This document shows positions 5,598 through 26,630 of a stretch of DNA of 36,317 nucleotides, one piece after another (within the stretch, counting starts at the first letter, position 1; every line of letters starts with the position of its first letter). The notes beneath the pieces are model-generated. The model ran no database searches, was not told where the DNA came from, and worked only from the letters and a program-made list of their open reading frames with translations. The position numbers were made by a program, and so were the translations under genes. The DNA comes from Sedimenticola thiotaurini (GTDB taxonomy: Bacteria; Pseudomonadota; Gammaproteobacteria; Chromatiales; Chromatiaceae). The stretch covers positions 1-36,317 of the forward strand of contig DRKP01000060.1 in assembly GCA_011051715.1 (NCBI GenBank). Direction: 5' to 3'.

Positions 5598-6634
5598 GGT
5601 GATGTCTGTTCCTGCTCCAGAGGGTAGGGTTGTTCGGGGAACCGCAGTTCCGCTCCATCGGCGTCGCCCAGACGCAGGTCACCGGCCTCGCGGCTGGCGA
5701 TCTCCAGCACCACCAGCAGGTCGCAGCCGCCCTCCGGGGCCGGACGCGCGTCCACCACCCTGCCGGCGCCCTGGCCGGAGGCGCTGTGGGGGGAGTGGAT
5801 CGCATCGCCGGGCCGGGGGCACGTATCGGTGTCGACATGGGCCAGGTACATGCGCCGCTTCAGCTTGCCCAGATACCTCATCCGCGCCACCACTTCCTGG
5901 CCGGTATAGCAACCCTTGGTGAAGCTGATGCCGTCGATCAGCTCCATGTTGACCATTTGCGGCACGAATGCCTCCACCGTCTCCTGTTGTACCGAGGGGA
6001 CTCCGGCGCGGATCTCCAGCAGCGACCAGTAGTCGGCGTTTGCCGGTTCGGCCTTCTCCGCCAGCTGCTGCCACACTCCGGCCACCGTCCGGGCGTCGCC
6101 GATCAGCTCATATCTCGGCAGCTCGCCGCCCAACCTGAGCAGAGTGATGCCGTTTTCGGTCACCGCGCCGCCGCTGGCGCCCGGTGGTTGCCGGAAACGG
6201 CCCGCCAGCAGCTCCGGCGCGCAGTCTCCGGCCAGCCCGATCCGCACCAGCCGGTCACTGGCGTCCTCGATGGTCACCTTCGACAGCAGCACAAACATGC
6301 GCAGCCGGTCGATCAGCGCCGCCACCAGCCCGGCGGTGGTCTGCAGATAGAGATCGCCATCGCGGCGGAACACCAGGAACGAGGCCAGCAGCCGCCCCTT
6401 TGGTGTGCAGTAGCCGGACAGCTGCCAGTGGCCCCCGGTCACCTCGCGGATGTCGTTGGTGAGCTGACCCTGGAGAAAGCCGTCGGCGTCCTCGCCGCTG
6501 ACGCGGATCAGGCCCAGGTGTGAGAGGTCCGTCAGGGCGCAGGCCGGGGCGGCCGCCGCCGTGGGGAAGCGGACGCCGCTGTCGTCGATGCGGGCGGAAC
6601 GGGACTCGAGGAATTGCTTCCATTGGTCGTTCAT
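5594..6634 (-). CDS. ygfZ: tRNA-modifying / Fe-S cluster repair protein YgfZ (folate-binding)
   Basis: A 346-aa GcvT-like folate-binding protein. The diagnostic motif is KGCYTGQE at residues 240-247, whose cysteine is essential in the E. coli protein, followed by VVARMRYLGKLKRRMYL. YgfZ uses tetrahydrofolate to support repair or assembly of certain Fe-S enzymes, including the radical-SAM enzyme MiaB. The N-terminal half has DGFLQGQLTNDI and YCTPKGRLLASFLVFR, both typical. The start at 6634 (MNDQWKQ) is preferred over an upstream ATG at 6739, whose extra 35 residues look like translated leader. It is the first gene of a leftward unit with the HDOD gene. Confidence 0.93.
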   Translation of the reverse strand: MNDQWKQFLESRSARIDDSGVRFPTAAAAPACALTDLSHLGLIRVSGEDADGFLQGQLTNDIREVTGGHWQLSGYCTPKGRLLASFLVFRRDGDLYLQTTAGLVAALIDRLRMFVLLSKVTIEDASDRLVRIGLAGDCAPELLAGRFRQPPGASGGAVTENGITLLRLGGELPRYELIGDARTVAGVWQQLAEKAEPANADYWSLLEIRAGVPSVQQETVEAFVPQMVNMELIDGISFTKGCYTGQEVVARMRYLGKLKRRMYLAHVDTDTCPRPGDAIHSPHSASGQGAGRVVDARPAPEGGCDLLVVLEIASREAGDLRLGDADGAELRFPEQPYPLEQEQTSP

Positions 6635-6831
6635 GGTGGCTGTCTGTCTCCACGGAATTTGCACGTATGAGCGCCAATGATAGGAGAATTGTTCCCCACT
6701 GTCAGTCGATTGCGGGAATGGACGGCAACCGCAACGCAATCGGGGCGGGAGGAGAGGGCGCCGGGCCCGGGGGGGACCCCCGGTGGCGACGCGATGGGGT
6801 AGAATGGGCAGCCGTCCCCCTTTCCGTCCCC

Positions 6832-8667
6832 ATGAGCATTTTCCCTATGGCGTCGCACATGATTTCACCCGGCAGCCTGGTGCTGTACAAGATCCGTCCG
6901 GCGCTGGTCACCGGCATCAGCGACAAGATCGATATCGATCTGGACGGTGGACGGGGCAAGCGGGTCCGAACCCGGGACATCACCCTGCTGCACCCGGGCC
7001 CCCTGACCAGCCTGGCCGAACTGCGACCGCTGGAGGCGGATGTCACCGAGGCCTGGGAGCTGGTGGCCGGTGAAGCCACCGACCTGGAGGAGCTGGCCGA
7101 ACTGATCTTCGGCGAATACACCCCGGTCACCGCCTGGTCCGCCTGGCAGCGGGTCGTCGACGGGCTCTACTTCGAGGGTACGCCGGACCGCATCCTGGCA
7201 CGGTCGCCGCAGCAGGTCGAGGAGGAACTGGCCCGCCGTGAGGCGAAGGCGGCGGAGGAGCAGGCATGGGCCGGTTTTCTGCACCGGCTGGAGCAGAAGC
7301 GCATCGACGGGCAGGACCGGGAGCGGCTGCGCGAGGTGGAGCGGCGGGCGCTGGAGCAGGCCGCCCACAGCCGCATCCTGCAGGCCCTGGAACGCCCGGA
7401 CACGCCGCAGGAGGCCCACCGCCTGCTGCTGGAGGCCGGTTACTGGGAACCCGCCTTCAACCCACACCCACAGCGCCTGGGCCTGTCGCTGGACAACCCG
7501 GAGCTGCCGCCGGCGACGCTGCCGGAAGAGCCCCGCCGTGACCTGACCGGACTGCAGACCTTCGCCATCGACGACCAGGGCAGCGAGGATCCGGACGACG
7601 CCATCAGCCTCGACGGTGACCGCGTCTGGGTGCACGTGGCGGACGTGGCCGCCCTGGCGACGCCCGATTCGGCGCTGGACCTGGAGGCGCGGGAGCGGGC
7701 CGCCAACCTCTATCTGCCGGACCGGATCGTGCATATGCTGCCGCCGCATCTCACCCGGCAGCTGGGACTCGGCCTGCAGCGGCGTTCGCCGGCACTCTCC
7801 TTCGGGCTGCGGCTGGGGGGGGAGGGCGAGGTGACGGAGCTGGAGGTGGTCCCGAGCTGGGTGCAGGTGACGCGGCTCACCTACGAAGAGGCGGACCGGC
7901 AGCTGGACCGCCCCCCGTTCGACCACCTGCGCCGACTGGCGGACCGCAACCGCCGGCGCCGGATGAGTGCCGGGGCGGCCGGTATCGAGCTGCCGGAGGT
8001 GAGCGTGCGGGTGGACGGGGAGGGCCGGGTCCGGATCCGGCCGATCGAACGCCGCGACAGCCGCGAGCTGGTCACCGAGCTGATGCTGATGGCGGGAGAG
8101 GCGGTGGCGCGTCATGCGCTGGAGCGGCAGATCCCGATGCCCTTCGTCTCCCAGCCGGCACCGGAGCAGCCGGCGCGTCCCCAGGGGCTGGCGGCCATGT
8201 ACGCCTACCGGCGCCAGCTGCGGCCGTCGCGCGCCGACACCCTGGAAGCGCCCCATGCCGGCCTCGGCCTCGCCGCCTATGTGCGCAGCACCAGCCCCCT
8301 GCGCCGCTATCTGGACCTGGTTGCCCACCAGCAGCTGCGGGCCGTGGTCACCGGCGGCACTCCGCTGAGCGTGGCGGAGGTGTCCGCGCGCATCACCGCC
8401 AGCAACCAGGCCAGCGCTACGGTGCGGCGGGCGGAGCGGCTCTCCAACCTGCACTGGAAGCTGATCCACCTGCGGCAGAATCCACACTGGAGGGGGAGCG
8501 CCACGGTGGTCGAGCTGCGGGATCAGAAGGCGACCCTGCTGATCCCCGACCTGGCCATGGAGACCCGTCTCCGCCTGCCCGGCGCGGTGCTGGAGCAGAA
8601 GGTCACCCTGGCACTGCGCGACCTGGATCTGGCGGAACCGGCGGCCTGGTTCCGGGTGCAGAAGTGA
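6832..8667 (+). CDS. RNB-domain exoribonuclease (RNase II/R family)
   Basis: A 611-aa 3'-to-5' exoribonuclease. The RNB active site is at residues 245-258, AIDDQGSEDPDDAIS, with the cluster of metal-binding aspartates; it is followed by VWVHVADVAALATP and LPDRIVHMLPPHL. The conserved SPLRRYLDLVAHQQL segment near the C-terminus matches the RNase II/R arginine loop. The N-terminus lacks the usual cold-shock domains in recognisable form and instead starts with a short beta-rich domain (VLYKIRPALVTGISDKIDI), an arrangement I associate with cyanobacterial or plastid-type RNB proteins. Start choice is uncertain among ATGs at 6832, 6847 and 6859; none has a strong ribosome site. The frame extends further upstream but without protein-like character. 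Confidence 0.9.
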   Translation: MSIFPMASHMISPGSLVLYKIRPALVTGISDKIDIDLDGGRGKRVRTRDITLLHPGPLTSLAELRPLEADVTEAWELVAGEATDLEELAELIFGEYTPVTAWSAWQRVVDGLYFEGTPDRILARSPQQVEEELARREAKAAEEQAWAGFLHRLEQKRIDGQDRERLREVERRALEQAAHSRILQALERPDTPQEAHRLLLEAGYWEPAFNPHPQRLGLSLDNPELPPATLPEEPRRDLTGLQTFAIDDQGSEDPDDAISLDGDRVWVHVADVAALATPDSALDLEARERAANLYLPDRIVHMLPPHLTRQLGLGLQRRSPALSFGLRLGGEGEVTELEVVPSWVQVTRLTYEEADRQLDRPPFDHLRRLADRNRRRRMSAGAAGIELPEVSVRVDGEGRVRIRPIERRDSRELVTELMLMAGEAVARHALERQIPMPFVSQPAPEQPARPQGLAAMYAYRRQLRPSRADTLEAPHAGLGLAAYVRSTSPLRRYLDLVAHQQLRAVVTGGTPLSVAEVSARITASNQASATVRRAERLSNLHWKLIHLRQNPHWRGSATVVELRDQKATLLIPDLAMETRLRLPGAVLEQKVTLALRDLDLAEPAAWFRVQK

Positions 8668-8955: not shown

Positions 8956-10838
8956 TCATCACCGACGTCACCGCGCGCAACATCCTCAAATACGCCACCC
9001 TGGAACTGCACGACCTGCCGGAGAAGGGCCTGATCGCCATCGACGGTCCCAATGAGTCGGGCAAGAGCTCCATCGGCGAGACCATCTGTTTCGCCCTGTT
9101 CGGGCGCACCTATTCGCTCGAACCGGGGGATCTGGAGAAGCTGATCCGCTGGGGCGAGGGGCACTGCTCCGCCAGCGTCCGCTTCCGCAGTGGCGACGGC
9201 GGGCACTACGAGGTGGCCCGGTTCCTGGACCGGGACGGCAACCAGGGGGCGCGCCTCAACCGGGTGGGAGAGGAGGAGCCGCTGGCCCGGGGCACCGAGG
9301 CGGTCGACAACGAGCTCTACAACCTGCTCGGCTATGGCTACGAGGAGTTCATCGAATCCTTCTATCTGGCCCAGCGCGAAATCACCACCCCCCATCCCCA
9401 CAGCTACGCGGTCAAGGCGATGGCCGGCATCTCCACCCTGGAGTACGTGGACGGGGAGTACCGCGAGGAGATCGGGCAGATCCAGCGGTCGCTGACGGAA
9501 CTGGCGGAGCGCCGCGCGGCGGTGGAACAGGAAGTGGCCGGGCTGGCGCTGGACCCGGAGCGGCTGCCCGCACTGCAGCAGGAGCGTGACCGGCAGGCGG
9601 CAGCGGAGTCGATGCTGAATCACCGCGTTGCCGATCTGGAGCAGGCCTCCAGCGACTATCAGGACGCCTGGCCCCGGGTGCGGGCGGCCAGGCGTGCCAG
9701 AGGGCGGGCCGGTCTGCTGCGGCTGCTGTCTCTGCTGCTGGCGGCGGTGCTGCTGGCCGCCTGGGGCCTGCTCACGCGCTACCCGGAACACCCCCTGGCC
9801 GGCCGTCTGAACGGCTGGCTGGGTGCCCAGCTGCCGGCGTGGGGGGGGCAGTATCTGCCCTGGCTGCTGTATGCCGGGATCGGCTTCGCCCTGCTGTTTC
9901 TGCTCGCCTGGTTCCGCATCGGTGCCCTGAAGGGGAGGATCCGCCGGCTGCAGGAGAAGGCCGCCGGGCTGGCCGGGCAGCTGGAGGAACTGTATCAGTC
10001 GGTCGCGCCGAAGCCGGACGGGGAGCCGGAGACGGCGGCGCCTGCAGCGGAGGGCGAAGCGGAGCAGGAGACACCGGCAGAGGGTGGCGAGGCCGCCCCG
10101 CCGACGCCCCCCGAGGCGGCGACGGTCGAGACCCTGCTCGGCCGCATCCGGGCCCTGCAGGCGACACCGCCGGAGGTGCGCGACGGCAGCGGCCAGCTGC
10201 TGGCCTGGACCCGGGACCGCCTGCAACGGCTGCAGACCCGCCTAGGCCGGCTCGACGAGCAGCTGCGCAGCGAGCAGGAGCGGGTGCGCAAGGCCGGTCA
10301 CCTGCAGCAGGAGCTGGAAGGCCTGGAGCAGAGAACGGCCGATCAGCAGCACCGGCTGCAACAGCGGGAGCTGGCCCGGGAACTGCTCGCTGGCGCCATC
10401 CGCCATCTCTCCCAGCGCTTCAACCGGGAACTGCGGGACCTGGTGGGACGCACCCTTCCCCTGTTCACCGAAGGGCGCTACGAACACCTGCAGATCGACG
10501 ACGATCTGACGGTACGCGTCTTCTCCAGCGAGAAACGCGACTTCCTCGACCTGGAGGAGATCTCCAGCGGTACCCAGCGGCAGATCATGCTGGCGGTGCG
10601 CCTGGCGCTGGCCCAGGAGCTGGTCAACAGCACCGTCGAGGGGCGGCAGTTCCTGTTCCTGGACGAGCCCTTCGCCTTCTTCGATCAGGAGCGTACCCGG
10701 CAGGCGATCGGCGTGCTGCCGGAACTGAGTGGGGAGATCAGCCAGATCTGGCTGGTGGCCCAGGAGTTTCCGGCGGATCAGACCTTCGATGTCCCGATCG
10801 CCTGCTCCCGCGACCAGGACAGCCTGCCGGCGGTCTGA
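8952..10838 (+). CDS. Membrane-anchored SMC/RecN/YhaN-like ATPase
   Basis: A 628-aa ABC-type ATPase of the SMC/Rad50 class. The Walker A is GPNESGKSS (32-40), the signature ISSGTQRQIML (537-547) and Walker B FLFLDEPFAFFD (567-578). Coiled-coil-like stretches flank the centre (about 170-245 and 325-350, then 395-490). Where Rad50 would have a zinc hook there are two hydrophobic segments (about 253-276 and 301-323) separated by some 24 residues, predicting a membrane hairpin with both head halves in the cytoplasm. A Glu/Pro/Ala-rich linker spans 353-390. YhaN-type proteins also carry central hydrophobic segments, so this is my best family guess; a DNA-related or membrane-stress role is inference. 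Confidence 0.85.
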   Translation: MIITDVTARNILKYATLELHDLPEKGLIAIDGPNESGKSSIGETICFALFGRTYSLEPGDLEKLIRWGEGHCSASVRFRSGDGGHYEVARFLDRDGNQGARLNRVGEEEPLARGTEAVDNELYNLLGYGYEEFIESFYLAQREITTPHPHSYAVKAMAGISTLEYVDGEYREEIGQIQRSLTELAERRAAVEQEVAGLALDPERLPALQQERDRQAAAESMLNHRVADLEQASSDYQDAWPRVRAARRARGRAGLLRLLSLLLAAVLLAAWGLLTRYPEHPLAGRLNGWLGAQLPAWGGQYLPWLLYAGIGFALLFLLAWFRIGALKGRIRRLQEKAAGLAGQLEELYQSVAPKPDGEPETAAPAAEGEAEQETPAEGGEAAPPTPPEAATVETLLGRIRALQATPPEVRDGSGQLLAWTRDRLQRLQTRLGRLDEQLRSEQERVRKAGHLQQELEGLEQRTADQQHRLQQRELARELLAGAIRHLSQRFNRELRDLVGRTLPLFTEGRYEHLQIDDDLTVRVFSSEKRDFLDLEEISSGTQRQIMLAVRLALAQELVNSTVEGRQFLFLDEPFAFFDQERTRQAIGVLPELSGEISQIWLVAQEFPADQTFDVPIACSRDQDSLPAV

Positions 10839-10841
10839 GCG

Positions 10842-11033
10842 GTGGCCTCGCCCTATCCCAAGTGCGCGGTCTGTCGCTTCATGCGTGGCATGGCATTCAG
10901 CGCGCTTGGGGGCGGGGCGGCCGGCTACCTGGCCCTGAGCCTGGGCATGACCCGCGCCAACGCCATCATCGCCGCCTTTTTCGGTGCCCTGGGCGCGGTG
11001 CTCTGGGCCGGCCGGCGCGGCAGGGACGGCTGA
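10842..11033 (+). CDS. Tiny two-helix membrane protein with CxxC
   Basis: A 63-aa protein starting at GTG, 3 bases after the ATPase gene's stop. It begins ASPYPKCAVCRFMRGMAF, giving a CAVC pair near the N-terminus, then two hydrophobic glycine/alanine-rich segments (about 17-33 and 39-56) ending in a basic RRGRDG tail. I do not recognise a family. The CxxC could bind a metal or be redox-active. Tight packing behind the membrane-anchored ATPase suggests a shared complex. Small size and a GTG start leave some doubt that it is expressed. Confidence 0.6.
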   Translation: MASPYPKCAVCRFMRGMAFSALGGGAAGYLALSLGMTRANAIIAAFFGALGAVLWAGRRGRDG

Positions 11034-11094
11034 GCGGCCACCATGCCGGCGGGCCTGCCCGCATTCCGGTCACGCTTTGGTCGCCGCGCCTGGA

Positions 11095-11574
11095 TCACCG
11101 TTGCACCGCCACCGGCACCGGCTGCAGCACCCGCTCCAGATCGGCCGGATCCATCGACACGATGTAGCCACGGCTGCCACCGTTGATGTAGATCAGTGGC
11201 AGGGCCAGGATGCTGCGCTCGCAGTAGACCGGCATCGCCCGGCGGGTGGCGAAGGGCGATGTGCCACCCACCCGATAACCTGAATGGCGCTCGGCGCTGG
11301 CGGGGGCGCAGGGGCCGACCGACTTGCAGCCGATATGGCGGGCGAGGGCACGGGTGGAGACCTCCCGGTCGCCATGCATCAGCACGATCAGCGGCCGACC
11401 GGTCTCGTCCTCCATGATCAGGGTCTTGATCACCCGGTGTTCGTCGACCCCGAACTCGTCCGCGAACTGGCGGGTGCCGCCGCCGGGGCGGTAGCGGTAG
11501 AGGTGATCCCTGAATGCGACACCCTGCCGCCGCAGCAGCAGGGCGGCTCGGGTCGCAGGCGGTTTCCTGGCCAC
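11095..11574 (-). CDS. ybaK: YbaK/EbsC-type aminoacyl-tRNA deacylase
   Basis: A 159-aa protein of the YbaK/ProX editing family, which hydrolyses mischarged tRNAs (Cys-tRNA-Pro in the E. coli case). Visible family features are the N-terminal helix ARKPPATRAALLLRRQGVAF, VIKTLIMEDETGRPLIVLMH, and a Gly-rich substrate loop SGYRVGGTSPFATRRAMPVY. The length is standard. No ATG fits, so I chose GTG at 11574, which has a GAGGAAA ribosome site about 10 bases upstream. The much longer upstream extension of this frame (to 12846) runs antisense to other genes and is not real. It diverges from the next gene. Confidence 0.88.
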   Translation of the reverse strand: MARKPPATRAALLLRRQGVAFRDHLYRYRPGGGTRQFADEFGVDEHRVIKTLIMEDETGRPLIVLMHGDREVSTRALARHIGCKSVGPCAPASAERHSGYRVGGTSPFATRRAMPVYCERSILALPLIYINGGSRGYIVSMDPADLERVLQPVPVAVQR

Positions 11575-11691
11575 AGTGCAGTTTCCTCGTTCGGGGCCTG
11601 TCGTCGCGGCTGCTCTCCTCCCGTCCCCTGTTGCGAAGCGCGTTCCCGGTCGGGATAATCGTTCCCAGGGGGGCAACCGGAGGAGCCGCCG

Positions 11692-15333: not shown

Positions 15334-15627
15334 GGACGGCTCCTGCAGGGATGGCAGTGGTCGGAGCCGGGATTATACCCGCTTCCGGTGGCGATCCGGT
15401 CGTCACCGGCAGGGGATGAAACGGGGAGCGGGATCACAGGATGGTGAAGCAGTGGCGTTACCGGCCGGATAATGGCGACTGGGCACGCGAAAACTGTGGA
15501 ACGGGACCGGGCAGGGACCCCGGCCGGATACATACTTGGAGTGGGACTTGGTGAAACCGGTGGGTTGGCAGCCCCACGATGTGCGCGCAGCGCGGGTTTC
15601 GGGTGTCTTGGTGCAGGAGGAAAAAAC
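15334..15627. promoter_or_regulatory. Divergent intergenic region between mobA and rpfF
   Basis: A 294-base spacer without a credible gene. It must carry the rpfF promoter, but I see no clear sigma-70 pair; GATACATACT at 15527-15536 is the best -10-like stretch. A sigma-54 match was tested near 15570 and the GG-N10-GC spacing fails. A strong ribosome site (AGGAGG, 15616-15621) lies just before the rpfF ATG. Confidence 0.35.
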
Positions 15628-16527
15628 ATGATTACAACAAACAAAGAGGCGGTCACGAAGAGTTTTCGACATGTGGATCTGGTGTTCGAGCCGGAGCACC
15701 AGGTGGTCTGGGCGGATCTCAAGTACCCCGGGCGGCCATGCATGAGCAGGGCGCTGCTGAAGGATGTGGCAGCGGCCCAGCGGCTGATCCAGCAGCGCGC
15801 CACCAGCGCCCATGAGCAGGGGCTGGACAACCGGCTCATCTACCAGGTGCTGGCATCGTCCCAGCCGGGTGTGTTCAACCTGGGCGGGGACCTGGCCCAT
15901 TTCATCGAATTGATCCGGACCCGCGACCGGATGCAGTTGTTCGACTACGCCAAGGCGTGTATCGATATCCTCTACCAGAGCGCCACCAGCTACGGCCTGC
16001 CGTTCACCACCATCGCCCTGGTGCAGGGGGAGACCCTGGGCGGCGGTTTCGAGGCGGCGCTGTCCGCCAATGTGATGATCGCCGAGCGCGGTGCCCGTTT
16101 CGGTTTTCCGGAGACGGTCTTCGGCCTGTTTCCCGGCATGGGCGCCTACAGTTTCCTGGCGCGGCGCATCGCCCCGGCGCTGGCCAAGCGGGTGATCACC
16201 AGCGGTCGCATCTACAGCGCCGAGGAGCTCTACGACATGGGTGTGGTGGACGTGCTGGCCGAGGACGGTCGGGGTCGGGAGGCGGTCTACGACTATATCC
16301 AGCACCAGCGCAGCCGTACCGCCGGTTTCCTCGCCTTCGACAGGGTGGTGGATCAGTTCCACCCCATCTCCTACAAGGAGCTGATGGACGTGGTGACCCT
16401 CTGGGTGGACACGGCGCTGGAGCTGTCGGACAAGAACCTGCGGCTGATGGAGTATCTGGTGCACGCCCAGGAGAAGCGCTGGGGTGCGGATCGGCCGGAA
16501 CAGGGGGAGCGGGCGGTCGCCCTGTAG
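15628..16527 (+). CDS. rpfF: DSF synthase (RpfF-type crotonase)
   Basis: A 299-aa enoyl-CoA hydratase/isomerase-fold protein resembling Xanthomonas RpfF along its whole length. RpfF dehydrates and hydrolyses 3-hydroxyacyl-ACP to release a cis-2-unsaturated fatty acid, the diffusible signal factor. Key stretches are VFNLGGDLAHF (82-92), LVQGETLGGGFEAALS (131-146) and FGFPETVFGLFPGMGAYSF (158-176); Glu142 and Glu162 align with the two catalytic glutamates of RpfF (141 and 161). The start at 15628 has an AGGAGG site at ideal spacing; a longer reading from 15472 does not look like protein. It converges with rpfC, opposite to Xanthomonas where rpfF and rpfC are also convergent neighbours. Confidence 0.92.
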   Translation: MITTNKEAVTKSFRHVDLVFEPEHQVVWADLKYPGRPCMSRALLKDVAAAQRLIQQRATSAHEQGLDNRLIYQVLASSQPGVFNLGGDLAHFIELIRTRDRMQLFDYAKACIDILYQSATSYGLPFTTIALVQGETLGGGFEAALSANVMIAERGARFGFPETVFGLFPGMGAYSFLARRIAPALAKRVITSGRIYSAEELYDMGVVDVLAEDGRGREAVYDYIQHQRSRTAGFLAFDRVVDQFHPISYKELMDVVTLWVDTALELSDKNLRLMEYLVHAQEKRWGADRPEQGERAVAL

Positions 16528-16573: not shown

Positions 16574-19165
16574 TCAGGCCGGGTTCCCCCGCTCCCGGTC
16601 GATGCCGATGGCCTCGGCAAACAGGGGCCGGGCCCGCTCCAGGGCCTGCTCCAGGCCCTGCAGGCAGGAGCGCCCCTCCTCCTGGAACCGCTCCGGCGGC
16701 AGGTTCTCGGCCATCCGCGCGAGGGTGCCCAGCTGGGTCAGGCCCAGATTGAGGGCGCTGCCCTTGAGGGCATGGGCCAGTTCGCCGAAGTGATGGACAT
16801 CACCCGCTGCCAGTGCCTCGGTCATGCCCTGGAGCAATTGCCGGCTGTCCCGTTCCATGTTCCGGAACAGGTTCTCGACGAAGGAGTCGTCCCCGGACAG
16901 CTGTTTCAGCTCCGCCAGCGTCTCCGGGTCGAGGACGGCCATGCCGTCCTCCTGCCCATCCTCCCTCAGCGCCGCCCCCTGGGGAGGCGGTGGCGCGGCG
17001 GCGGTGCTGTCGTCGCCGACCGCCATGGAAATCGCCTCCAGCAGCCTGGCGGAAGAGATGGGCTTGGTCAGGAAATGCTCGATACCCGCCTCGTGACAGC
17101 TCCTGCGGGCCTCGGGTGTGGCATTGGCGGTCAGCATGATGAAGGGGACCGGATCCGGGTCGCCGGCATGGGCGAAACGGTGGATCTGGTAGACCTCGAT
17201 ACCACCGATCTCCGGCATGTGCATGTCCACGATCACCAGGTCGAAGGCCTCCTGCTCCAGCGCGTCCAGCACCTGGCGGCCGTTCTCCACCAGGAGAAAA
17301 TCGTGGCCGGCGCGCTCCAGCACGCGGCCGATCACCATCCGGTTGATGGAGTTGTCCTCGGCGACCAGGATGCGCAATTGCCGCAGCGCCTGCCGGCGGC
17401 GGGTGAAATGGCGCGACAGATTGATCACGCCCGGTACATCGCCACTGCCGGGTTTGCTGGCGTGCAGGGCGTTGAACAGCAGGGCCTTGTCGAACGGGCT
17501 GGGTATGACGTAGACCGGATTGGCTATCTGGCTCAGGCCCGACTGGAGGCCGCTCTCCCGCGGCTGCCGCGCCAGCAGGACGATGATGTTGGGCAGGGAC
17601 AGCTCCTGCTCCAGTGACAGGAGGAAGCGCAGCATGTCGCCACTCGGCTCGACACCGTCCAGGATGACGACCTCGTAGCTGGTCGGCCGCTGGCCGTCCC
17701 CCAGCAGCATGCGCAGCGCCTCCCGGGCGCTGCCGGCGTCGCTGTAGCCGACACCCCAGCCGCGCAGGGCGTGGGTGATCTCCGTCTCCCCCGTCGCCGG
17801 CGGGGCGATACGCAGCACCGAGCACTGCTGGACCTGTTCCAGTTCGCGGTCGTCGACCAGATCCTTCTGGTGCTGGAATTCGATGTCGAACCAGAACCTG
17901 GTACCGATGCCCGGGGTACTCTCGAGGCCGATGCGGCCACCCATCAACTCCACCAGGTTCCTGGCGATGGAGGTGCCGAGACCGGTACCGCCGAAGCGGC
18001 GGGTGGTGCTCTCATCCGCCTGGGTGAAGGTATCGAAGATGTGCTCCTGCTCCTCGGTGGTCATGCCGATGCCGGTATCGATCACCTCGAAGCGGATCAG
18101 CGAGCGGCCGGAACCGGTGCGGATGGTGCGGCAGCGCAGCTCCACTGCCCCGCGCTCGGTGAACTTGATGGCGTTGCCGATGAGGTTGATCAGGATCTGG
18201 CGCAGCCGGTGGGGATCCCCCACCAGCCGGTAGGGGATCTCCAGGCCGATGCTGGAGATCAGCCTGATCCCCTTCTTCTTCGCCACCGGGTCGAACATGC
18301 GCACGGTCGAGCCGATCAGGCCATGCAGATCGAAATCGATCCGCTCCAGCGACATGCGGCCGGCCTCGATCTTGGAGATGTCGAGGATGTCGTCGATCAG
18401 CCGCAGCAGGGTCCTGCCGGAGGTGGCGATGGTCTCGACGTATCCCTGCTCCTCGTTCCCCAGCGTGCAGTCCGAGAGCAGTTCGGTGGTACCGATGATG
18501 CCGTTCAGGGGCGTGCGTATCTCATGACTCATGCGGGCCAGGAATTCGCTCTTGGCCTGGTTGGCGATCTCTGCCCGCAGGCGCTCCGCCTGGACACGCC
18601 TGATCAGGATGGCGACATAGCCCGGCAGCACCACGAGGGCACCGAGCAGCCCGATGCCGATGGTCCGGTGGGTGCTCCAGTAGTCGCTGACCGAAAGCGC
18701 CACACTGAAGCCGACGATGGAGAGAAGGGCCGACAGGTAGAGATATCTCTCGCCGTGGCGGAAACCGTTTCCGAAGGTGATCCACAGGCACCCTGCCCAC
18801 CAGGGCGCTCCCGCCTCGCCGGTGGTGATCATGGCGATGCTGAAGGAACCGATATCGAGAAAGATCCCGAACACGATCCGCGCCGGCGACTTCCGCGGCG
18901 ACCAGAGGATCGATATCAGGATGGCGATGCCCAGGGTGAGATGGACGCCGAACAGAACCAGGCCGCCGATGAGCTGGGGGGAGGCCACCGGGGTGGTGAC
19001 ATCGAGCCAGGTGAGATAGGCCAGGATGATCGAGATGATGGCGATGCGGATGACCGCCTGCTCGAACTCCTGCTGGTTCTCTTTTCGTGAACGAAGACGG
19101 CGTACCACGGAGAAGAGTGTGGTAGAAAGAGTCCTCGTCCTGTCGATGAAGGTGTTATGATCCAT
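16574..19165 (-). CDS. rpfC: DSF sensor hybrid histidine kinase (RpfC-type)
   Basis: An 863-aa hybrid kinase; Xanthomonas RpfC is about 726 aa. The membrane input region of about five helices spans roughly 38-190 and carries RpfC-like text (GNGFRHGERYLYL, LPGYVAILIRR). HisKA contains MSHEIRTPLNGIIG with His214; the ATPase domain has N331 and the G boxes DTGIGM and GGTGLGTSIA. A degenerate receiver-like domain (about 448-570) is extra compared with the classical protein. A proper receiver follows (about 597-715; E603, D604, phospho-Asp647, K701), then an HPt domain with His798 in AHALKG. The ribosome site is weak, so the exact start is less sure. It should sense the signal made by RpfF and pass phosphate to RpfG. 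Confidence 0.92.
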   Translation of the reverse strand: MDHNTFIDRTRTLSTTLFSVVRRLRSRKENQQEFEQAVIRIAIISIILAYLTWLDVTTPVASPQLIGGLVLFGVHLTLGIAILISILWSPRKSPARIVFGIFLDIGSFSIAMITTGEAGAPWWAGCLWITFGNGFRHGERYLYLSALLSIVGFSVALSVSDYWSTHRTIGIGLLGALVVLPGYVAILIRRVQAERLRAEIANQAKSEFLARMSHEIRTPLNGIIGTTELLSDCTLGNEEQGYVETIATSGRTLLRLIDDILDISKIEAGRMSLERIDFDLHGLIGSTVRMFDPVAKKKGIRLISSIGLEIPYRLVGDPHRLRQILINLIGNAIKFTERGAVELRCRTIRTGSGRSLIRFEVIDTGIGMTTEEQEHIFDTFTQADESTTRRFGGTGLGTSIARNLVELMGGRIGLESTPGIGTRFWFDIEFQHQKDLVDDRELEQVQQCSVLRIAPPATGETEITHALRGWGVGYSDAGSAREALRMLLGDGQRPTSYEVVILDGVEPSGDMLRFLLSLEQELSLPNIIVLLARQPRESGLQSGLSQIANPVYVIPSPFDKALLFNALHASKPGSGDVPGVINLSRHFTRRRQALRQLRILVAEDNSINRMVIGRVLERAGHDFLLVENGRQVLDALEQEAFDLVIVDMHMPEIGGIEVYQIHRFAHAGDPDPVPFIMLTANATPEARRSCHEAGIEHFLTKPISSARLLEAISMAVGDDSTAAAPPPPQGAALREDGQEDGMAVLDPETLAELKQLSGDDSFVENLFRNMERDSRQLLQGMTEALAAGDVHHFGELAHALKGSALNLGLTQLGTLARMAENLPPERFQEEGRSCLQGLEQALERARPLFAEAIGIDRERGNPA
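19153..19161 (+). promoter_or_regulatory. Candidate extended -10 promoter of the ACP-KS pair
   Basis: TGTTATGAT is a good extended -10 element (TGnTATAAT-like) located within the first codons of the opposite gene rpfC. Transcription would begin near 19168, giving a leader of about 68 bases. The spacer between the divergent starts is only 70 bases, so promoters for rpfC and the acyl carrier gene must overlap or interfere. Confidence 0.4.
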
Positions 19166-19489: not shown

Positions 19490-20692
19490 GTGCCCAGGGT
19501 CGTCGTCACCGGTCTGGGTGCGGTCTCCGCCCTTGGCCCCGACGTGGAAACGTTCTGGACCGCCCTGGCCGGTGGCCGGTCCGGTCTCAGGGCGCTCGAG
19601 GAGGTCCCCGGCGGTGCGTCGAATACAAGGATCGGCGGACAGGTCCCGAACTTTACCCCGGCGCAGCATTTTCCAGCCGACCTGCTGCCGCTGCTGGACC
19701 GGCACTCCCAGTTCGCCATCGTCGCGGCGCGCCAGGCGGTGGCCGATGCCGGCCTCTCCAGGGACGATCTCGGCACGGCCGCAGCCATCGTCGGGACCGG
19801 CTGCGGCGGCAAGGAGACGGATGAACAGACCTATGCCAGGCTCTACCGGGAGGGGCGCAAGCGGGCCCACCCCCTGACCATTCCCCGGGGGATGCCAAGC
19901 GCCGCCAGCAGCCAGGTCAGCATGCAGCTGGGGATCCAGGGACCGGTGTTCACCGTCTCCAGCGCCTGCGCCTCCTCCAACCATGCGGTCGCCCAGGCGG
20001 CGATGATGATACGCGCCGGCCTGGTGGATGTGGCCATCGCCGGTGGCGCCGATGCCCCCTTCACCCACGGCCTGCTGAAGGCCTGGGAGGCGATGCGGGT
20101 GATGTCGGGCGACACCTGCCGTCCCTTCTCCGCCGATCGCAGCGGACTGGTACTGGGGGAGGGTGCCGGCATGGTGGTGCTGGAATCGGAGGAGCGGGCG
20201 CTTCGGCGCGGTGCCCGCATCCATGCGGAGCTGGCGGGGTTCGGCATGTCGGCGGATGCGGGCCACATCACCGATCCGAGTGTCGACGGGGCGGTCCGGG
20301 CGATGACCGCGGCGCTGGCGGATGCGCGGGTCTCTCCCGATCAGGTGGCCTACGTGAACGCCCACGGCACCGGCACCCGCGCCAACGACGTGGCCGAGAG
20401 CCGGGCGCTGCGCCAGGTGTTCGGCCGCCATGCGGACGCCCTGGCGGTCTCTTCGACCAAATCCATGCATGGCCATGCCCTGGGGGCGGCCGGCGGGCTG
20501 GAGCTGGTGGCGACGGTGCGGGCCATCGCCGCCGGACTGGCGCCGGGGACGGCCAATTTCACCCGGCCGGATCCGGACTGCGATCTCGACTATCTTCCCA
20601 ATCGGGCGCGGGCGATGGAGATCCCGGTCGCCATCTCCAACTCCTTCGCCTTCGGTGGCCTCAACGCGGTGCTGGTGGTGCGGGCGGTCTGA
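19490..20692 (+). CDS. Beta-ketoacyl-ACP synthase (FabF/NodE-like)
   Basis: A 400-aa condensing enzyme of the KAS II group, elongating an acyl chain by two carbons using malonyl-ACP. The Cys-His-His triad is visible: Cys160 in SSACASSNHA, His292 in NAHGTGTRAND, His329 in STKSMHGHALGAAG, with the supporting Lys324. The GTG start at 19490 follows the carrier gene by 8 bases; MPRVVVTGLGAVSALG is a typical KAS N-terminus. Its partner carrier and the surrounding signalling genes suggest it makes the acyl substrate for the RpfF step rather than bulk lipid. It converges on the methyltransferase gene with a 6-base gap. Confidence 0.93.
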   Translation: MPRVVVTGLGAVSALGPDVETFWTALAGGRSGLRALEEVPGGASNTRIGGQVPNFTPAQHFPADLLPLLDRHSQFAIVAARQAVADAGLSRDDLGTAAAIVGTGCGGKETDEQTYARLYREGRKRAHPLTIPRGMPSAASSQVSMQLGIQGPVFTVSSACASSNHAVAQAAMMIRAGLVDVAIAGGADAPFTHGLLKAWEAMRVMSGDTCRPFSADRSGLVLGEGAGMVVLESEERALRRGARIHAELAGFGMSADAGHITDPSVDGAVRAMTAALADARVSPDQVAYVNAHGTGTRANDVAESRALRQVFGRHADALAVSSTKSMHGHALGAAGGLELVATVRAIAAGLAPGTANFTRPDPDCDLDYLPNRARAMEIPVAISNSFAFGGLNAVLVVRAV

Positions 20693-20698
20693 CCGGTT

Positions 20699-21766
20699 TC
20701 AGCGGGTCGGCTCCCTGCGCTCGAACAGGAAGTGGCCGTTGCCGTAGACCTCGCCGTCCCCGGGCGCGAACAGCACCACCTTGCACTGGATGAAATAGTC
20801 GTTCCAGTGCCGGATCTCCGCTTCCGACAGGGTGTCACCATAGAGTCGTTCGATGTTGTCCCAGAAGCGGCGGTGCCACTCCTCCAGGGTGCGCCAGTAG
20901 TTGAAGCCGTTCAGATACCAGCTCCCCTTCAGGTCGAAGAACTCGTCCTGCTCCTCGATCACCCGGATCGGCCAGATGTGGCCTCCGGGAAAGAACTTTC
21001 CGATCAGGGTCCTGCTGGAGTCGTGGTACTGGGGAAACACCGGCCGGGAGACGATCAGGTGCAGGAACAGCCGGCCGCCGGGCTTGAGCAGTGCATGGAT
21101 GCGCTGGAACGCGGCCCGCAGGTTGTTGACGTGTTCGAAGGCGCCGACGGCCATGACGATGTCATAGCGCTGTTCGCCCAGGTCGGCGAGGGGAACGGCA
21201 CTGAAGTCCCCCTCGATCAGCGTCAGGTTGCGGCCGTGCAGGGGGTGCCCCGGCTGCTCCATGCACTCGCGGATGTAGCCGGTCTGTACCCTGCTGGGGG
21301 TGATGCTGGTGATCTCCATCTGCGGGTAGCGTCCCAGCAGGTAGGTCTCCAGCGGGCCGAACCCGCAACCGATGTTGAACACCTTTTCGTCGCCCCGGAT
21401 GCCGGCACGCTGGCAGATGAGATCGAACTTGGCCCGCTCCGCCTGTTCCAGGGTGGCGGACGACGCACGGATCTGCTCCGGGGTCTCGCCGTAGTAGGCG
21501 GTGGTATAGGCCATGAATTCCGGATCCAGGAAGGCGCGGAACAGGGTGCTGTCGGCATCGAAATGCTGCTCCATCAACTCGTCGGTCTCGTCCCACATCG
21601 GGCCCTGATCGGTGGGGATCGCCTGGATGTCCGACTCCGTTCCGGCCGCGGCCAGGCGCTGGTACTCTCGGGTGAAATAGCGGGTCAGGCGTTGTTCGTA
21701 GAGACGGAGTTCGTCACTGCCATAGGGCAGGATCCCGGCTTGCTGCAGCTGTTCTCTGATGGACAT
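20699..21766 (-). CDS. Cyclopropane-fatty-acid-synthase-like SAM methyltransferase
   Basis: A 355-aa protein resembling CFA synthase: HFDADSTLFRAFLDPEFM (68-85), the SAM-binding FNIGCGFGPLE (130-140), MAVGAFEHV (205-213) and LFLHLIVS (233-240), then FFPGGHIWPI. CFA synthase adds a methylene or methyl group across a fatty-acyl double bond. By alignment with E. coli Cfa, the active-site Glu (211), His (236) and Tyr (290) are kept, but the cysteine in YSCAY is Thr89 here (YTTAYY). The start at 21766 replaces a longer frame reaching 21961, whose added residues do not fit the family. It lies 67 bases after the pseudo-RpfC gene on the same strand, so the rpfG-side genes may form a unit. Confidence 0.82.
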   Translation of the reverse strand: MSIREQLQQAGILPYGSDELRLYEQRLTRYFTREYQRLAAAGTESDIQAIPTDQGPMWDETDELMEQHFDADSTLFRAFLDPEFMAYTTAYYGETPEQIRASSATLEQAERAKFDLICQRAGIRGDEKVFNIGCGFGPLETYLLGRYPQMEITSITPSRVQTGYIRECMEQPGHPLHGRNLTLIEGDFSAVPLADLGEQRYDIVMAVGAFEHVNNLRAAFQRIHALLKPGGRLFLHLIVSRPVFPQYHDSSRTLIGKFFPGGHIWPIRVIEEQDEFFDLKGSWYLNGFNYWRTLEEWHRRFWDNIERLYGDTLSEAEIRHWNDYFIQCKVVLFAPGDGEVYGNGHFLFERREPTR

Positions 21767-21819
21767 GATCGGTGCATATCTCTCCGGCGTGGATGGGTAC
21801 GAATGGCCGGCGACCCGGA

Positions 21820-21836
21820 TGACGGCTGCGCCGTCA
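21820..21836 (-). other. Hairpin at the pseudo-RpfC stop codon
   Basis: TGACGGC (21820-21826) and GCCGTCA (21830-21836) pair perfectly with a 3-base loop, overlapping the stop codon of the upstream gene and preceding the methyltransferase start. There is no T-run. It could modulate the ratio of the two products; this is a guess. Confidence 0.35.
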
Positions 21837-23435
21837 GTCCAGGGTCCCCCTGTGGCCCGAGCCAGTATACTCGGAAAGGAACGCCCGCAGCGCCCGTTCC
21901 GTGTTCTCGTGGATGGAGCGGATGTCCGCGGTCCGCCCGCCGGCGACCGAGGGAAAGTCATGCGGGTCGATGCGACCGGCGGCGATACTGGCCCGGTGCA
22001 GCTCGAATGCGCCCACGTTCCCGGCCAGGTCGGAGAGGGCCTGACTGAGGTCGCGGAAGTGGTGGTGGTCGCAGCGCCGGGCCGCCTCCTCCAGCTGCAG
22101 GACCAGACGCCGCCCCTCGATCCGGAAGCCGCTGACCAGCTTCTCCAGGAAATCGCTGCTGCCTCCCAGCCGGTCCAGTTCGGTCAGTCGCTGAATGTCG
22201 AGCAGAACCCCCTGGATCTCGCGGATGCCGCGGGCCTTCGGAGGGCCACCGTCGCCACGACCGGCGTCGCCGGTGTGACTGCCCAGCGGCAGCTCCATGA
22301 TCCGTTCGATGGTGGTGGAGAGCTTGTGGCCGTCCAGCGGTTTGATCAGCATGCCATCGACGCCGGCCGTTTCGCAGCGCCGCAGCAGCGCGCTGTCCGC
22401 CTGCTCCAGCAGGATGATGAAGGGAACCCTGCGGTTGCCCACCCGGCTGAAACGGTGCAGTTTGAACGTCTCCAGGCCGCTGGCCCGGTTCAGGTCGAGC
22501 GAGACGATGGCCAGGTCGAAGCGGTGGCCGTCCAGGGCATCGAGCACGTGGATGCCGTCATCGGCCACGAACACCTCGTGCCCCATGCGTTTGAGCAGGT
22601 TGCGGATGCGGTGACGGTCGCTGCCGTCGCTGTCCGCCAGCAGGATGTGCAGCGGCTGACGCGAGACCGGGCTGGTGTACCGGTCTATCAGGCGCACCAC
22701 CCGGGTGTCGCTGTCCGGGTACGGACGCAGCGGTTCGTGCAGGGCATTGTAGAGCAGGGTCTTGTCCAGCGGCCTGCCGAGAAGGCAGGAGTAGCCGGCC
22801 GCCTCCAGCTGGCTGCGCTGCAGTGCGCCGGTGCTGGCGATGTGGATCAGGGGGAGGTGGCGCAGTTCCGGCTCCGACCGGACCAGGGCCGCGAACTGGT
22901 CACTGCCGATCCCCAGGCGTCCCTCGTTGACGATGGCGGCCCGGTACGGGGTGCCGTCGCGTTCGCCCTGCAGCAGCAGATGGAGGGCCTCGCCGACACG
23001 GCTGGCGGTCTGGAAGGGGATGTTCCAGGAGGCGAGCCACTGGTGCAGGTCGTCGAGGGCGGCGACGTCGTCGGCCAGCAGCAGGACCGCGGCATCCGCC
23101 GCCTCCCTCTCCCCCGCCGCGAGGTGCTCTCCGGTGGTGGTTTCCGGTTCCGGCGCGGAAGCAGGGCCGTCCGGCAGGGCCGCCGCAACGGGGAAGGGGG
23201 TGGTCGTCGGGTCGTCCATCTCCCCGGTGAGGTGGTGTTGCCGGATCAGGCGGTGAAACACCATCAGCAGAAGCAGGACCAGGGTGACCAGCAGGACGCC
23301 GAAGAGACCGAGCCACGGGCCGGAGAGGCCCAGCAATACGCCGAACGTCAGCGCGATTGCAGGATGTCTCTGCAACAGGTGCCGGCCGGCAGCGTGACGT
23401 GTATGGGGATCCCCTGTGCTGTCCATCGCATCCAT
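21834..23435 (-). CDS. RpfC-like pseudo-phosphorelay membrane protein (no kinase, dead REC and HPt)
   Basis: A 533-aa protein with a short membrane hairpin (about 25-60), a Pro/Thr/Glu linker, a degenerate receiver-like domain (about 115-230), a second receiver (about 263-378) and an HPt-like helix bundle (about 410-525). The order matches the back half of RpfC, and stretches align well: GHEVFVADDGIHVLDAL with the RpfC text GHDFLLVENGRQVLDAL. No HisKA or ATPase domain is present. Ser312 (IVSLDL) sits at the phospho-Asp position, and Gln465 (LSQALSD) replaces the HPt histidine of RpfC (LAHALKG). Lys365 is retained. It probably arose by duplication of RpfC and may act as a binding or competitor protein. 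The start at 23435 has an AGGGGG site. Confidence 0.85.
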   Translation of the reverse strand: MDAMDSTGDPHTRHAAGRHLLQRHPAIALTFGVLLGLSGPWLGLFGVLLVTLVLLLLMVFHRLIRQHHLTGEMDDPTTTPFPVAAALPDGPASAPEPETTTGEHLAAGEREAADAAVLLLADDVAALDDLHQWLASWNIPFQTASRVGEALHLLLQGERDGTPYRAAIVNEGRLGIGSDQFAALVRSEPELRHLPLIHIASTGALQRSQLEAAGYSCLLGRPLDKTLLYNALHEPLRPYPDSDTRVVRLIDRYTSPVSRQPLHILLADSDGSDRHRIRNLLKRMGHEVFVADDGIHVLDALDGHRFDLAIVSLDLNRASGLETFKLHRFSRVGNRRVPFIILLEQADSALLRRCETAGVDGMLIKPLDGHKLSTTIERIMELPLGSHTGDAGRGDGGPPKARGIREIQGVLLDIQRLTELDRLGGSSDFLEKLVSGFRIEGRRLVLQLEEAARRCDHHHFRDLSQALSDLAGNVGAFELHRASIAAGRIDPHDFPSVAGGRTADIRSIHENTERALRAFLSEYTGSGHRGTLD

Positions 23436-23599: not shown

Positions 23600-24658
23600 C
23601 TAGAGGCTGACGGTGGTGCCATCGTCGGAGAAGCGCTCCCGGATCGACAGGATCCGGTCGAGGCGGCTGAAGAAGGCGTCGATGCAGTCCGGGTCGAAAT
23701 GCCGGCCCCGCTGCTGACGCATGTACTCCAGGGTGCGGTCGATGCCCCATGCCTTCTTGTAGGGACGCTCCGACTGCAGTGCATCGAAGACGTCGGCCAC
23801 CGCCGCCACGCGTGCCTCGATCGGAATCTCAGCCCCCTTCAGACCCTGGGGATAGCCACTTCCGTCGAAACGCTCATGATGTCCCAGGGCGATGATAGCC
23901 CCGGATTTCAGGAAAAAGGAGGGACTGTCCCGCAAAATCTCGTAGCCGATGCGGGTGTGGGTCTGCATCCGCGCCCATTCGTCGCTGTCGAGACGGCCCC
24001 GCTTCAGCAGGATGTGGTCGGGTACCCCGATCTTGCCGATGTCGTGCATCGGAGCGGCATGGCGGATGATCTCGCACAGCTCGTGTTCGAGGCCGATCTC
24101 CTGGGCCACCAGGAAGGCGTATTCCGCCATTCGCACCACATGGTTGCCGGTATCCTCGTCCCGGTATTCGCCGGCCTTGGCCAGGCGCAGCAGGGTCTCC
24201 TTCTCCCGCTGCTCCAGCTCGTGGGTCTTGTTGAACACCTCCTGTTCCAGCCAGCGGGCCCGGTCCTTGATGATCTGCTGCTGGCGACGCAACTGCAGCA
24301 GGTTGCGGCAGCGGGCGCGGCATTCGTAGTGATCGATCGGCTTGGAGAGGAAATCGGTGGCGCCCGCCTCGAGGGCACGGTAGCGGACACTCTTCTCGTC
24401 GACGCAGGTGATGATCACCAGGGGAATGTCGACGCAGGAGGGGATCTGGCGGAACCAGTGGGTGAACTCGATGCCGTCCATGTGCGGCATCTTGAAGTCG
24501 GTGATCACCAGGTCGTGGCTGTTGCCCTTCGCCCACTCCAGGGCCTTGACCGGGCTGGCGAAGCTCTCCACCTGGATCTCCCGGTCGATGGAGCGGATCA
24601 GCTCCTCCAGGATCATCCGGCTGATCGACTGGTCGTCGATGATCAGTACAGTCGACAT
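23600..24658 (-). CDS. rpfG: RpfG-type response regulator, REC plus HD-GYP phosphodiesterase
   Basis: A 352-aa protein. The receiver (1-120) has IIDD (6-9), phospho-Asp54 in VITDFKMP and LSKP at 104-107. The HD-GYP domain holds MHDIGKIGVPD (204-214; His205, Asp206) and HHERFDGSGYPQGL (260-273, with the GYP triplet), so it should hydrolyse c-di-GMP. The linker ARCRNLLQLRRQQQ and the later FDALQSERPYKKAW closely resemble Xanthomonas RpfG. The start at 24658 has a CAGGGGG site; the longer reading from 24709 adds unlikely residues. It is the expected output partner of RpfC and heads a leftward set with the pseudo-RpfC gene 164 bases downstream. Confidence 0.93.
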   Translation of the reverse strand: MSTVLIIDDQSISRMILEELIRSIDREIQVESFASPVKALEWAKGNSHDLVITDFKMPHMDGIEFTHWFRQIPSCVDIPLVIITCVDEKSVRYRALEAGATDFLSKPIDHYECRARCRNLLQLRRQQQIIKDRARWLEQEVFNKTHELEQREKETLLRLAKAGEYRDEDTGNHVVRMAEYAFLVAQEIGLEHELCEIIRHAAPMHDIGKIGVPDHILLKRGRLDSDEWARMQTHTRIGYEILRDSPSFFLKSGAIIALGHHERFDGSGYPQGLKGAEIPIEARVAAVADVFDALQSERPYKKAWGIDRTLEYMRQQRGRHFDPDCIDAFFSRLDRILSIRERFSDDGTTVSL

Positions 24659-24844
24659 CGAATCTACCCCCTGCGCTCCGCCGCGGGAGCGGTGGCCGCC
24701 GTCTGGCATCTGCTGTTCAGGTCGATTGTCAGGATCGCTGCCCCCCGCTGATCGGGAATCCCCGTCGGTCCACTGCGGGCCGGGTCCGGCTCTCCGGGCC
24801 TGCGGCCGCTGCAGCAGGGACGGATTCGGATCCGGTCCGGATTC

Positions 24845-25948: not shown

Positions 25949-26566
25949 TCAGGCAGGAATATCGCGCTCGCTCGCCTGCCGGAACGCAGCGCGGAACTCG
26001 TCGTAGTCGCGCGCCACCGGGTACTGGGGGAACTCGTCGATCACGTTCTGTGGTGGCCGGAACAGGATGCCGCTGTCGGCCTCGTCGAGCATGCCGGTGT
26101 CGTTGTACGAGTCACCGGCGGCGATCACCCGGTAGTTGAGGCCGTGGAACGCCTTCACCGACTGCCGCTTGGGGTCCTGCTGGCGAATGTGGTAGTCGAC
26201 CACCCGGCCGGAGTCGTCGACACTGAGGCGGTGGCAGAGCAGGGTGGGATGACCGAGCTGGCGCATCAGCGGGGCGGCGAACTCGTAGAAGGTGTCGGAC
26301 AGGATCACCACCTGGAAACGCTCGCGCAGCCAGTCCAGGAACTCGCGCGCCCCCGGTAACGGCCCCATGGCATCGATCACCCGCTGAATATCGGGCAGGC
26401 CGAGCCCGTGCTGCTCCAGGATGCGCAGTCGCTGGCGCATCAGCACGTCGTAGTCGGGGATGTCGCGGGTGGTGGCCTTCAACTCGTCGATGCCGGTCCG
26501 CTGGGCGAAATTGATCCAGATCTCCGGGACCAGGACCCCCTCCAAATCGAGGCAGGCAATCTCCAC
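25949..26566 (-). CDS. thrH: ThrH: phosphoserine phosphatase / phosphoserine:homoserine phosphotransferase
   Basis: A 205-aa HAD-superfamily enzyme almost collinear with Pseudomonas ThrH. Motif I is CLDLEGVLVPEIW (with the DLEG variant typical of ThrH), motif II ILSDTFYEF, and the late acidic motif AAGDSYNDTGML. In Pseudomonas it transfers phosphate from phosphoserine to homoserine, linking serine and threonine synthesis. The start is GTG at 26566 (VEIACLDLEG), giving exactly the family length, with an AAAGGAG site 8 bases upstream; the ATG at 26629 overlaps the terminator zone and is rejected. Confidence 0.95.
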   Translation of the reverse strand: MEIACLDLEGVLVPEIWINFAQRTGIDELKATTRDIPDYDVLMRQRLRILEQHGLGLPDIQRVIDAMGPLPGAREFLDWLRERFQVVILSDTFYEFAAPLMRQLGHPTLLCHRLSVDDSGRVVDYHIRQQDPKRQSVKAFHGLNYRVIAAGDSYNDTGMLDEADSGILFRPPQNVIDEFPQYPVARDYDEFRAAFRQASERDIPA

Positions 26567-26630
26567 TGCGCATCTCCTTTGTCGGCGGCCCGTCCCCCCT
26601 GCACGGGGTCCCGGCCGCGGCGCGGACAAG

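Follow-up and report, generated by a model that had tools for sequence, protein, structure and literature searches.

A kinase-less relative of RpfC encoded beside rpfG lacks a complete receiver site and is kept under purifying selection

Results

The rpf locus

The window, meaning the whole 36,317-nucleotide stretch of DNA analysed here, is an entire contig of a 3.39-Mb genome in 194 contigs and carries an rpf cluster (Table 1). Directly downstream of rpfG is a gene for a kinase-less relative of RpfC, here termed RpfC*, whose open reading frame is real and has a G-rich stretch just 5' of the ATG; a scan for promoters and terminators gave no signal above chance. The next gene downstream encodes a methyltransferase, the start of which was placed at Met65 of a longer open reading frame, where the alignments of its relatives begin. 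Both this methyltransferase and the FabF-like synthase recur beside rpfF-rpfC in many relatives, as well as at locus L144 of another family, and may modify the fatty-acid signal. A HAD-family gene (25949-26629, reverse strand) also adjoins the rpf cluster in many relatives, with an identity of about 82% that is above that of the rpf proteins.

Table 1. Genes of the rpf cluster in the window and the regions of the kinase-less protein
Feature	Position	Strand	Basis or remark
rpfF-like crotonase	15472-16527	+	PRK08788 345.8 bits (cut-off 177); RpfF model 237.6 bits, below cut-off 550
Full-length RpfC, 863 aa, phospho-sites intact	16574-19165	-	Pfam HisKA, HATPase_c, Response_reg, Hpt
FabF-like beta-ketoacyl-ACP synthase, in rpf cluster	19490-20692	+	
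Cyclopropane-synthase-like methyltransferase	about 20699-21769	-	next gene downstream of the kinase-less gene
Kinase-less RpfC relative (RpfC*), 533 aa	21834-23435	-	ATG at 23435
Degenerate HPt, residues about 410-525	21861-22208	-	Gln465 replaces His (codon 22041-22043); Asp469 at His+4 (codon 22029-22031)
Degenerate receiver REC2, residues about 262-381	22293-22652	-	Ser312 replaces Asp (codon 22500-22502)
Pseudo-receiver REC1, residues about 115-233	22737-23093	-	alignment with the C-terminal half of RpfC; model
N-terminal membrane hairpin, residues about 14-71	23223-23396	-	hydropathy; AlphaFold2 helices, modest confidence
rpfG (REC and HD-GYP)	23600-24709	-	directly upstream of the kinase-less gene, gap of 164 bases

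Domain architecture of the kinase-less protein

From about residues 111-134 to 519-525 the window protein aligns, as the first-pass annotation had claimed, with the C-terminal half of the RpfC encoded in the same window; the identity is 27-31%, and both the alignments and the trees described below indicate common descent with RpfC over REC1-REC2-HPt. Pfam identified a Response_reg domain at residues 263-375 (E 2.4e-12) and neither HisKA nor HATPase, in agreement with the annotated lack of a histidine kinase core, and a kinase HMM had no match at E 1e-5 in any of the 50 kinase-less proteins collected below. The Pfam Hpt model did not reach the threshold of E 0.01 in the window protein and did so in 19 of 30 relatives scanned. 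The alignment also confirmed that Ser312 occupies the column of the receiver aspartate and Gln465 that of the HPt histidine; in addition, the acidic pair of the receiver reads Asp-Ser and its conserved Thr is Leu.

An AlphaFold2 model of the window protein shows the hairpin followed by two alpha/beta domains and a C-terminal helical region (helices 414-525); it was built from a four-row alignment (mean pLDDT 67.3, pTM 0.32) and is usable for the order of the domains, not for their packing. Structural comparison, confined to residues 259-384 of the model, returned receivers with Z up to 19.6, among them the RpfC receiver 3m6m_D (Z 18.1, rmsd 1.3 over 117 residues, 30% identity). The Response_reg match, Ser312 and this receiver fold together place the protein among the pseudo-receivers as these are defined.

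A hydropathy scan gave two hydrophobic segments, 26-45 and 46-66, and the proposed membrane hairpin is thus borne out, with model helices of modest confidence. The multi-pass input region typical of RpfC is absent from the window protein, given that the input HMM had no match and only these two segments are present; by the same HMM an RpfC-like input region is recognisable in nine of the 50 kinase-less members, the window protein having the hairpin only. Ahead of REC1 no hydrophobic segment was found in the members from genomes G056, G064, G077 and G078, whose starts are unsure, and the membrane anchor is therefore not universal.

Distribution of the family

A first search, of 55 relatives, found matches with short frames in several genera. 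With a profile of eight sequences, 76 of the 210 genomes of the window's family matched at 1e-60, up to six candidates being scored per genome. The RpfC-like proteins of 66 of these 76 genomes (window included) were fetched and sorted by the kinase HMM; the other ten (G060, G123, G184, G191, G192, G200, G207, G209, G210 and G214) have only frames of at least 854 aa. This yielded 50 kinase-less proteins, from 50 of the 210 genomes and 12 genera, and 61 kinase-bearing RpfCs, some of which come from outside the family or are second copies. Two named records hold relatives, one a metagenome-assembled genome (MAG) under the label Sedimenticola thiotaurini, of a genus in which RpfC-RpfG has been reported (PMC10300362), and the other an unplaced MAG from the Gammaproteobacteria. 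In a class-wide search 49 of 369 genomes matched, of which 18 (window included) were fetched and the rest judged on frame length; the only kinase-less forms confirmed were those of two genomes in the window's family, G000 and G007. Other class frames below 750 aa that were fetched (G499, G257, G252 and a second locus of G007) were all kinase-bearing, and G499, considered as a member from outside the family, was rejected as a contig-edge piece of a kinase-bearing RpfC; the shorter frames of G506 (270 aa) and G519 (722 aa) lay outside the fetched set. In the literature searched, with subscription papers mostly out of reach, no account of a kinase-less paralogue of RpfC next to rpfG was found.

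Two further candidates were set aside. An apparent fusion with the cyclopropane-synthase-like methyltransferase in the G074 member (802 aa) was rejected, as the frame crosses an assembly run of N, and the row was retained for the REC and HPt columns. Proteins of 263-282 aa encoded upstream of rpfG, which had been labelled by script as kinase-less RpfC, were rejected as members: they are a separate tandem-receiver protein that occurs in many relatives and is absent from the window (L025 5654-6451, L029 10946-11752, L031 13129-13959 and others). In the nine inspected, the Asp of the first receiver is replaced by Thr, Ala or Ser, and the second receiver looks intact.

Several arrangements of full RpfCs were also seen. 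Locus L031 of G010 encodes two full-length RpfCs (5325-7856 and 9124-11682), one of them adjoining rpfG, with the kinase-less gene absent; G056, of the same genus, has the kinase-less form. At L129 of G007 two further RpfC-like kinases (4843-6948 and 6983-8665), one of which is without HPt, are found near a distant RpfF and away from the rpfG locus. G079 (L106, 8555 onwards) has a single RpfC beside rpfG and rpfF, of 1094 aa in its longest reading, which overlaps rpfG, so that the true start is probably later.

Phospho-sites across the family

All 61 full RpfCs have the acidic Asp, phospho-Asp, Lys and HPt His, and their receiver site is complete, whereas not one of the 50 kinase-less members has a complete site (acidic pair, Asp, Thr/Ser and Lys); L024 and L025, which match G073 and G124, and L037, which is another kinase, were left out of the phospho-site count. 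The phospho-Asp column of the kinase-less proteins holds Asn in 26, Asp in ten, Ser in eight and Glu in six. The ten members with Asp have neither the first acidic residue nor the conserved Thr/Ser, and all ten also keep the HPt His. On the HPt His column, which could be read in 48 members (two have no such region), His is found in 24, Gln in 17, Leu in four and Gly in three. The first-pass statement that all phospho-sites are lost is consequently correct for the window protein and does not extend to the family. The first-pass annotation had further taken homologues with intact Asp and His at the columns of Ser312 and Gln465 as a sign of local decay rather than an evolved pseudo-relay; this applies in part, as ten members retain both residues, though their receiver site is broken at the acidic residue and at Thr/Ser.

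The position four residues after the HPt His is Asp in all 48 kinase-less members, whereas the 61 full RpfCs have either Gly (47) or Asp (14) there. A comparison of columns between 29 kinase-less proteins and 26 full proteins of carrier genomes identified this change of Gly to Asp as the only one, by the cut-offs we chose, between two near-fixed residues. Since the 14 full RpfCs have the same Asp, it need not abolish function. These 14 all belong to genus g8 (for example L032, 9576-12077), and their HPt keeps the His and has no Lys at His+3. From the column counts, Ser312 and Gln465 are endpoints reached in the window protein; what marks the family as a whole is the broken receiver site together with the Asp at His+4. 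In a bacterial sample 2.0% of receivers were without Asp and 0.9% of Hpt domains without His (PMC12632262), and given the rarity of such losses the combination of Ser312 and Gln465 is unlikely to be due to chance.

Gene order and phylogeny

Of the 50 kinase-less genes, 47 have a usable rpfG on the same stretch, and every one of these follows rpfG directly, downstream and on its strand; gaps range from -145 to +359 bases and twelve of the 47 overlap rpfG by 4 bases. Carriers, where measurable, have no full RpfC on the same strand as rpfG and within 500 bases of it, the full gene being at least about 1.6 kb off or on the opposite strand, whereas in non-carriers a full rpfC is right beside rpfG in ten of 13 measurable cases (exceptions G222, G029 and G047).

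The kinase-less proteins form a single clade, with an SH-aLRT of 98 in a tree with 49 kinase-less rows (one of 111 rows was dropped for too few columns). The support was again 98 for 29 kinase-less rows after removal of 26 phospho-site columns, addition of outgroups and omission of rows with 200 or fewer filled columns, and 100/98 for 17 kinase-less rows without the phospho-site columns, both being chosen subsets of the 50. This clade groups (93/93) with the rpfG-adjoining RpfCs of G010, G188, G079, G208 and G211 and with the RpfCs of genus g8, which are not beside rpfG. A separate clade (100/99), termed RpfC-A, includes the window RpfC. The nearest joins to the kinase-less clade (93/93 and 94/78) fall below starred support, and an AU test did not reject a single group of kinase-less proteins and RpfC-A (p = 0.105). 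Descent from an RpfC on the rpfG side is favoured by these trees over descent from an RpfC of the window type, and a recent duplicate of the window's own RpfC, which would fit the first-pass wording of a copy, is not favoured.

Trees of RpfG and RpfF were made from a chosen subset with the near-duplicates of 16 named genomes removed. The RpfGs of the 32 carriers in the tree form one group (99) with those of G079, G208, G211, G213 and G222, of which the first four keep a full RpfC beside rpfG and G222 is without the kinase-less gene. The RpfFs of most RpfC-A genomes form another group (100), joined by L144 of another family. Exceptions are the RpfGs of G010 and G188, outside the carriers' RpfG group, and the RpfF of G010, outside the RpfC-A group; they bear on the order of events and leave the odds of the mechanism as they were. 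The simplest account would be of two modules with different histories, one in which rpfG goes with its old RpfC and one that pairs rpfF with a second RpfC. Given that the carrier RpfGs group with those of genomes with a full RpfC in the slot, and that RpfF and most working RpfCs group otherwise, the kinase-less protein is most likely RpfG's former kinase. In G222 and at L144 the kinase-less gene is absent and rpfC lies away from rpfG, indicating that the system can do without it.

Selection

On close pairs, by the Nei-Gojobori method in our own script (several saturated pairs gave no value), dN/dS was 0.06-0.36 in the kinase-less gene; the corresponding ranges were 0.06-0.20 (full rpfC), 0.00-0.23 (rpfG) and 0.05-0.15 (rpfF). 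The kinase-less gene is constrained by purifying selection, often more weakly than rpfC and rpfG. Mean column entropy, compared with RpfC, shows constraint that is alike in the HPt (2.07 vs 2.04), tighter in REC1 (2.10 vs 2.33) and looser in REC2 (1.84 vs 1.32), and 14 columns are invariant across 30 divergent kinase-less members. Three members are shortened, those of G111 (in-frame stop), G165 (stops short of the HPt) and G164 (truncated near its end); the frames of the others, where not cut by a contig end or a run of N, are uninterrupted. The G111 gene (L071, 7900 to about 9946) is divided by a TGA into frames of 506 and 157 aa, a real break or a sequencing error. Local decay was rejected on the low dN/dS, the mostly intact frames and the conserved columns. 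The first-pass reading of an evolved pseudo-relay is upheld by these results taken with the one old clade and the lack of a complete receiver site in all members.

Candidate partners

RpfG is intact: all 61 proteins have the acidic pair, the phospho-Asp and the Thr, the HD pair and a further His, as well as Tyr and Pro of GYP, and the Lys column holds Lys in 54 and Arg in seven. RpfF matched in 26 of 32 genomes searched, with six initially unmatched. It was not found in G161, G162, G163 and G165 (93-99% complete), where the best remaining matches are distant crotonases; these four are related, all keep the kinase-less gene and rpfG, and three have a full RpfC in the set. The absence was withdrawn for G157, which has a contig-edge fragment (82% identity over 28 residues), and is doubtful for G154, since RpfF is present in its close relative G151. 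A further 14 genomes of genus g8 have RpfF on another contig or far off. A check for full RpfC in eight carriers gave a full-length match in G120, G122, G155, G167 and G226 and no clear one in G025, G064 and G165 (81-93% complete). Judged by gene content, the conserved partner would more likely be RpfG, alone or together with RpfC, than RpfF.

Discussion

The relay of this protein has been lost and yet the gene has been kept by selection in many relatives, which suggests that it probably acts by binding old partners and not by phosphate transfer. The best explanation, to which we give an even chance, is that the protein was once the membrane kinase of RpfG and is now a phosphorylation-blind membrane adaptor. 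In such a case, signalling would have passed to another RpfC, after which the original one would have lost its kinase core and its working phosphorelay; the protein would then hold RpfG, and perhaps the working RpfC too, at the membrane through REC1-REC2-HPt, and would set the place or activity of RpfG, possibly with an effect on c-di-GMP, with no phosphate given or taken. Against the phosphorylation-blind reading, the HPt His in half of the members means that some could still carry phosphate. A wider form of this proposal is distinctly more doubtful: that these proteins are a class of retired kinases in which, after a second RpfC came with the rpfF module, the rpfG-side kinase lost its core and was kept as a membrane platform for RpfG, that the Asp at HPt His+4 perhaps grips the RpfG receiver in place of phosphohistidine, and that the RpfH of Xanthomonas could be the other half of a like event.

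The first-pass annotation had raised titration of RpfF or RpfG at the membrane. In Xanthomonas, RpfC represses RpfF via its receiver with no need of the phosphorelay and signals to RpfG by phosphorelay (PMC4504480, PMC5391125), and the window protein might similarly titrate or restrain RpfF through its receiver. The chain 3m6m_D is indeed an RpfC receiver crystallised with RpfF; it was the only chain under 1e-8, it stood well apart with the family profile (E 4.8e-27 vs 1.9e-16 for the next chain), and its 30% identity was the highest among the 50 structural matches listed. However, this is unlikely to be the main role for three reasons: first, four genomes have the kinase-less gene and no RpfF that could be found, which weakens the idea; second, RpfF is distant or on another contig in the 14 other genus g8 genomes; and third, the constraint on the receiver (REC2) is relaxed. 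The RpfG half of the suggestion would fit better, given the linkage in 47 of 47 cases and the largely shared history of the two genes.

With a similarly small probability, the members that bear the HPt His would form a relay side arm like RcsD, leading from the RpfC receiver through the protein to RpfG. The His in 24 of 48 members, the Hpt matches in 19 of 30 and the intact receivers of RpfC and RpfG are consistent with such a route, but the His has been lost from the other 24, the window protein included, with the gene retained, the residue at His+4 is Asp in every member, and RpfC keeps its own HPt His throughout. Still less probable is a sensor role, in which REC1 would bind a small molecule such as c-di-GMP and provide feedback on the c-di-GMP-degrading RpfG. 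There is a precedent in the pseudo-receiver of ShkA (PMC7010744), ShkA and RpfC both place a pseudo-receiver between kinase core and receiver, and REC1 is more conserved here than in RpfC; however, Tyr338 of ShkA aligns by hand with residue 218, where none of 29 members has Tyr, and c-di-GMP binding of the ShkA type is unsupported. The least probable explanation is slow decay of a redundant RpfC to a remnant with no present role: although the kinase, the phospho-sites and, in many members, the sensor region have been lost, three genes are split or shortened and dN/dS exceeds that of RpfC in many pairs, the frames are otherwise uninterrupted, dN/dS is well below 1 and invariant columns persist among divergent members.

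Comparison with known systems

Of the known kinds, pseudo-receivers, the pseudo-kinase DivL and the RcsD side arm come nearest to the window protein, which lacks defining features of RpfC, RpfH and RcsD and has that of a pseudo-receiver. The kinase-less protein is like RpfC in its homologous REC1-REC2-HPt half, in its place beside rpfG and, in nine members, in its input region, and is unlike it in the absence of HisKA and HATPase, the broken receiver site, the HPt His lost from 24 of 48 members and its separate clade. The plant pseudo-HPt AHP6 is likewise an HPt domain without His, and inhibits a relay, but is a stand-alone, soluble plant protein. The RpfH of the X. campestris rpfGHC operon, which is described as resembling the RpfC input region and as having no apparent role (PMC3749722, PMC4504480), is also an extra gene in a similar place that corresponds to part of RpfC, and the parallel drawn in the first-pass annotation holds in this respect; compared by description only, RpfH resembles the input region whereas the window protein resembles the output region. 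Pseudo-receivers and aspartate-less receivers share the receiver fold without a working Asp site (PMC12632262, PMC4395418), whereas REC2 of the window protein has a second pseudo-receiver and a degenerate HPt attached, in a protein encoded beside its probable former partner. DivL, the Caulobacter pseudo-kinase that reads DivK~P, has been repurposed from signalling to the binding of a response regulator (PMC4211667), but keeps the histidine kinase region where the window protein keeps the relay half. RcsD, the phosphotransfer partner of RcsC, is a hybrid-kinase relative with an HPt (PMC3762810); unlike the window protein, with Gln465 and no pseudo-kinase domain, it keeps a pseudo-kinase domain and a working HPt.

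The family provides a natural series after replacement of a kinase, from the full RpfC beside rpfG, to kinase-less forms with a sensor region and kinase-less forms with a hairpin, with the HPt His present or absent. The switching of pseudo-receivers has been termed a mystery (PMC12632262), and here intact and degenerate versions of one module are found beside the same partner. Transcript data from Xanthomonas point to partners of RpfG besides RpfC (PMC3749722), and the membrane adaptor proposed here, if true, would be one example of such a partner.
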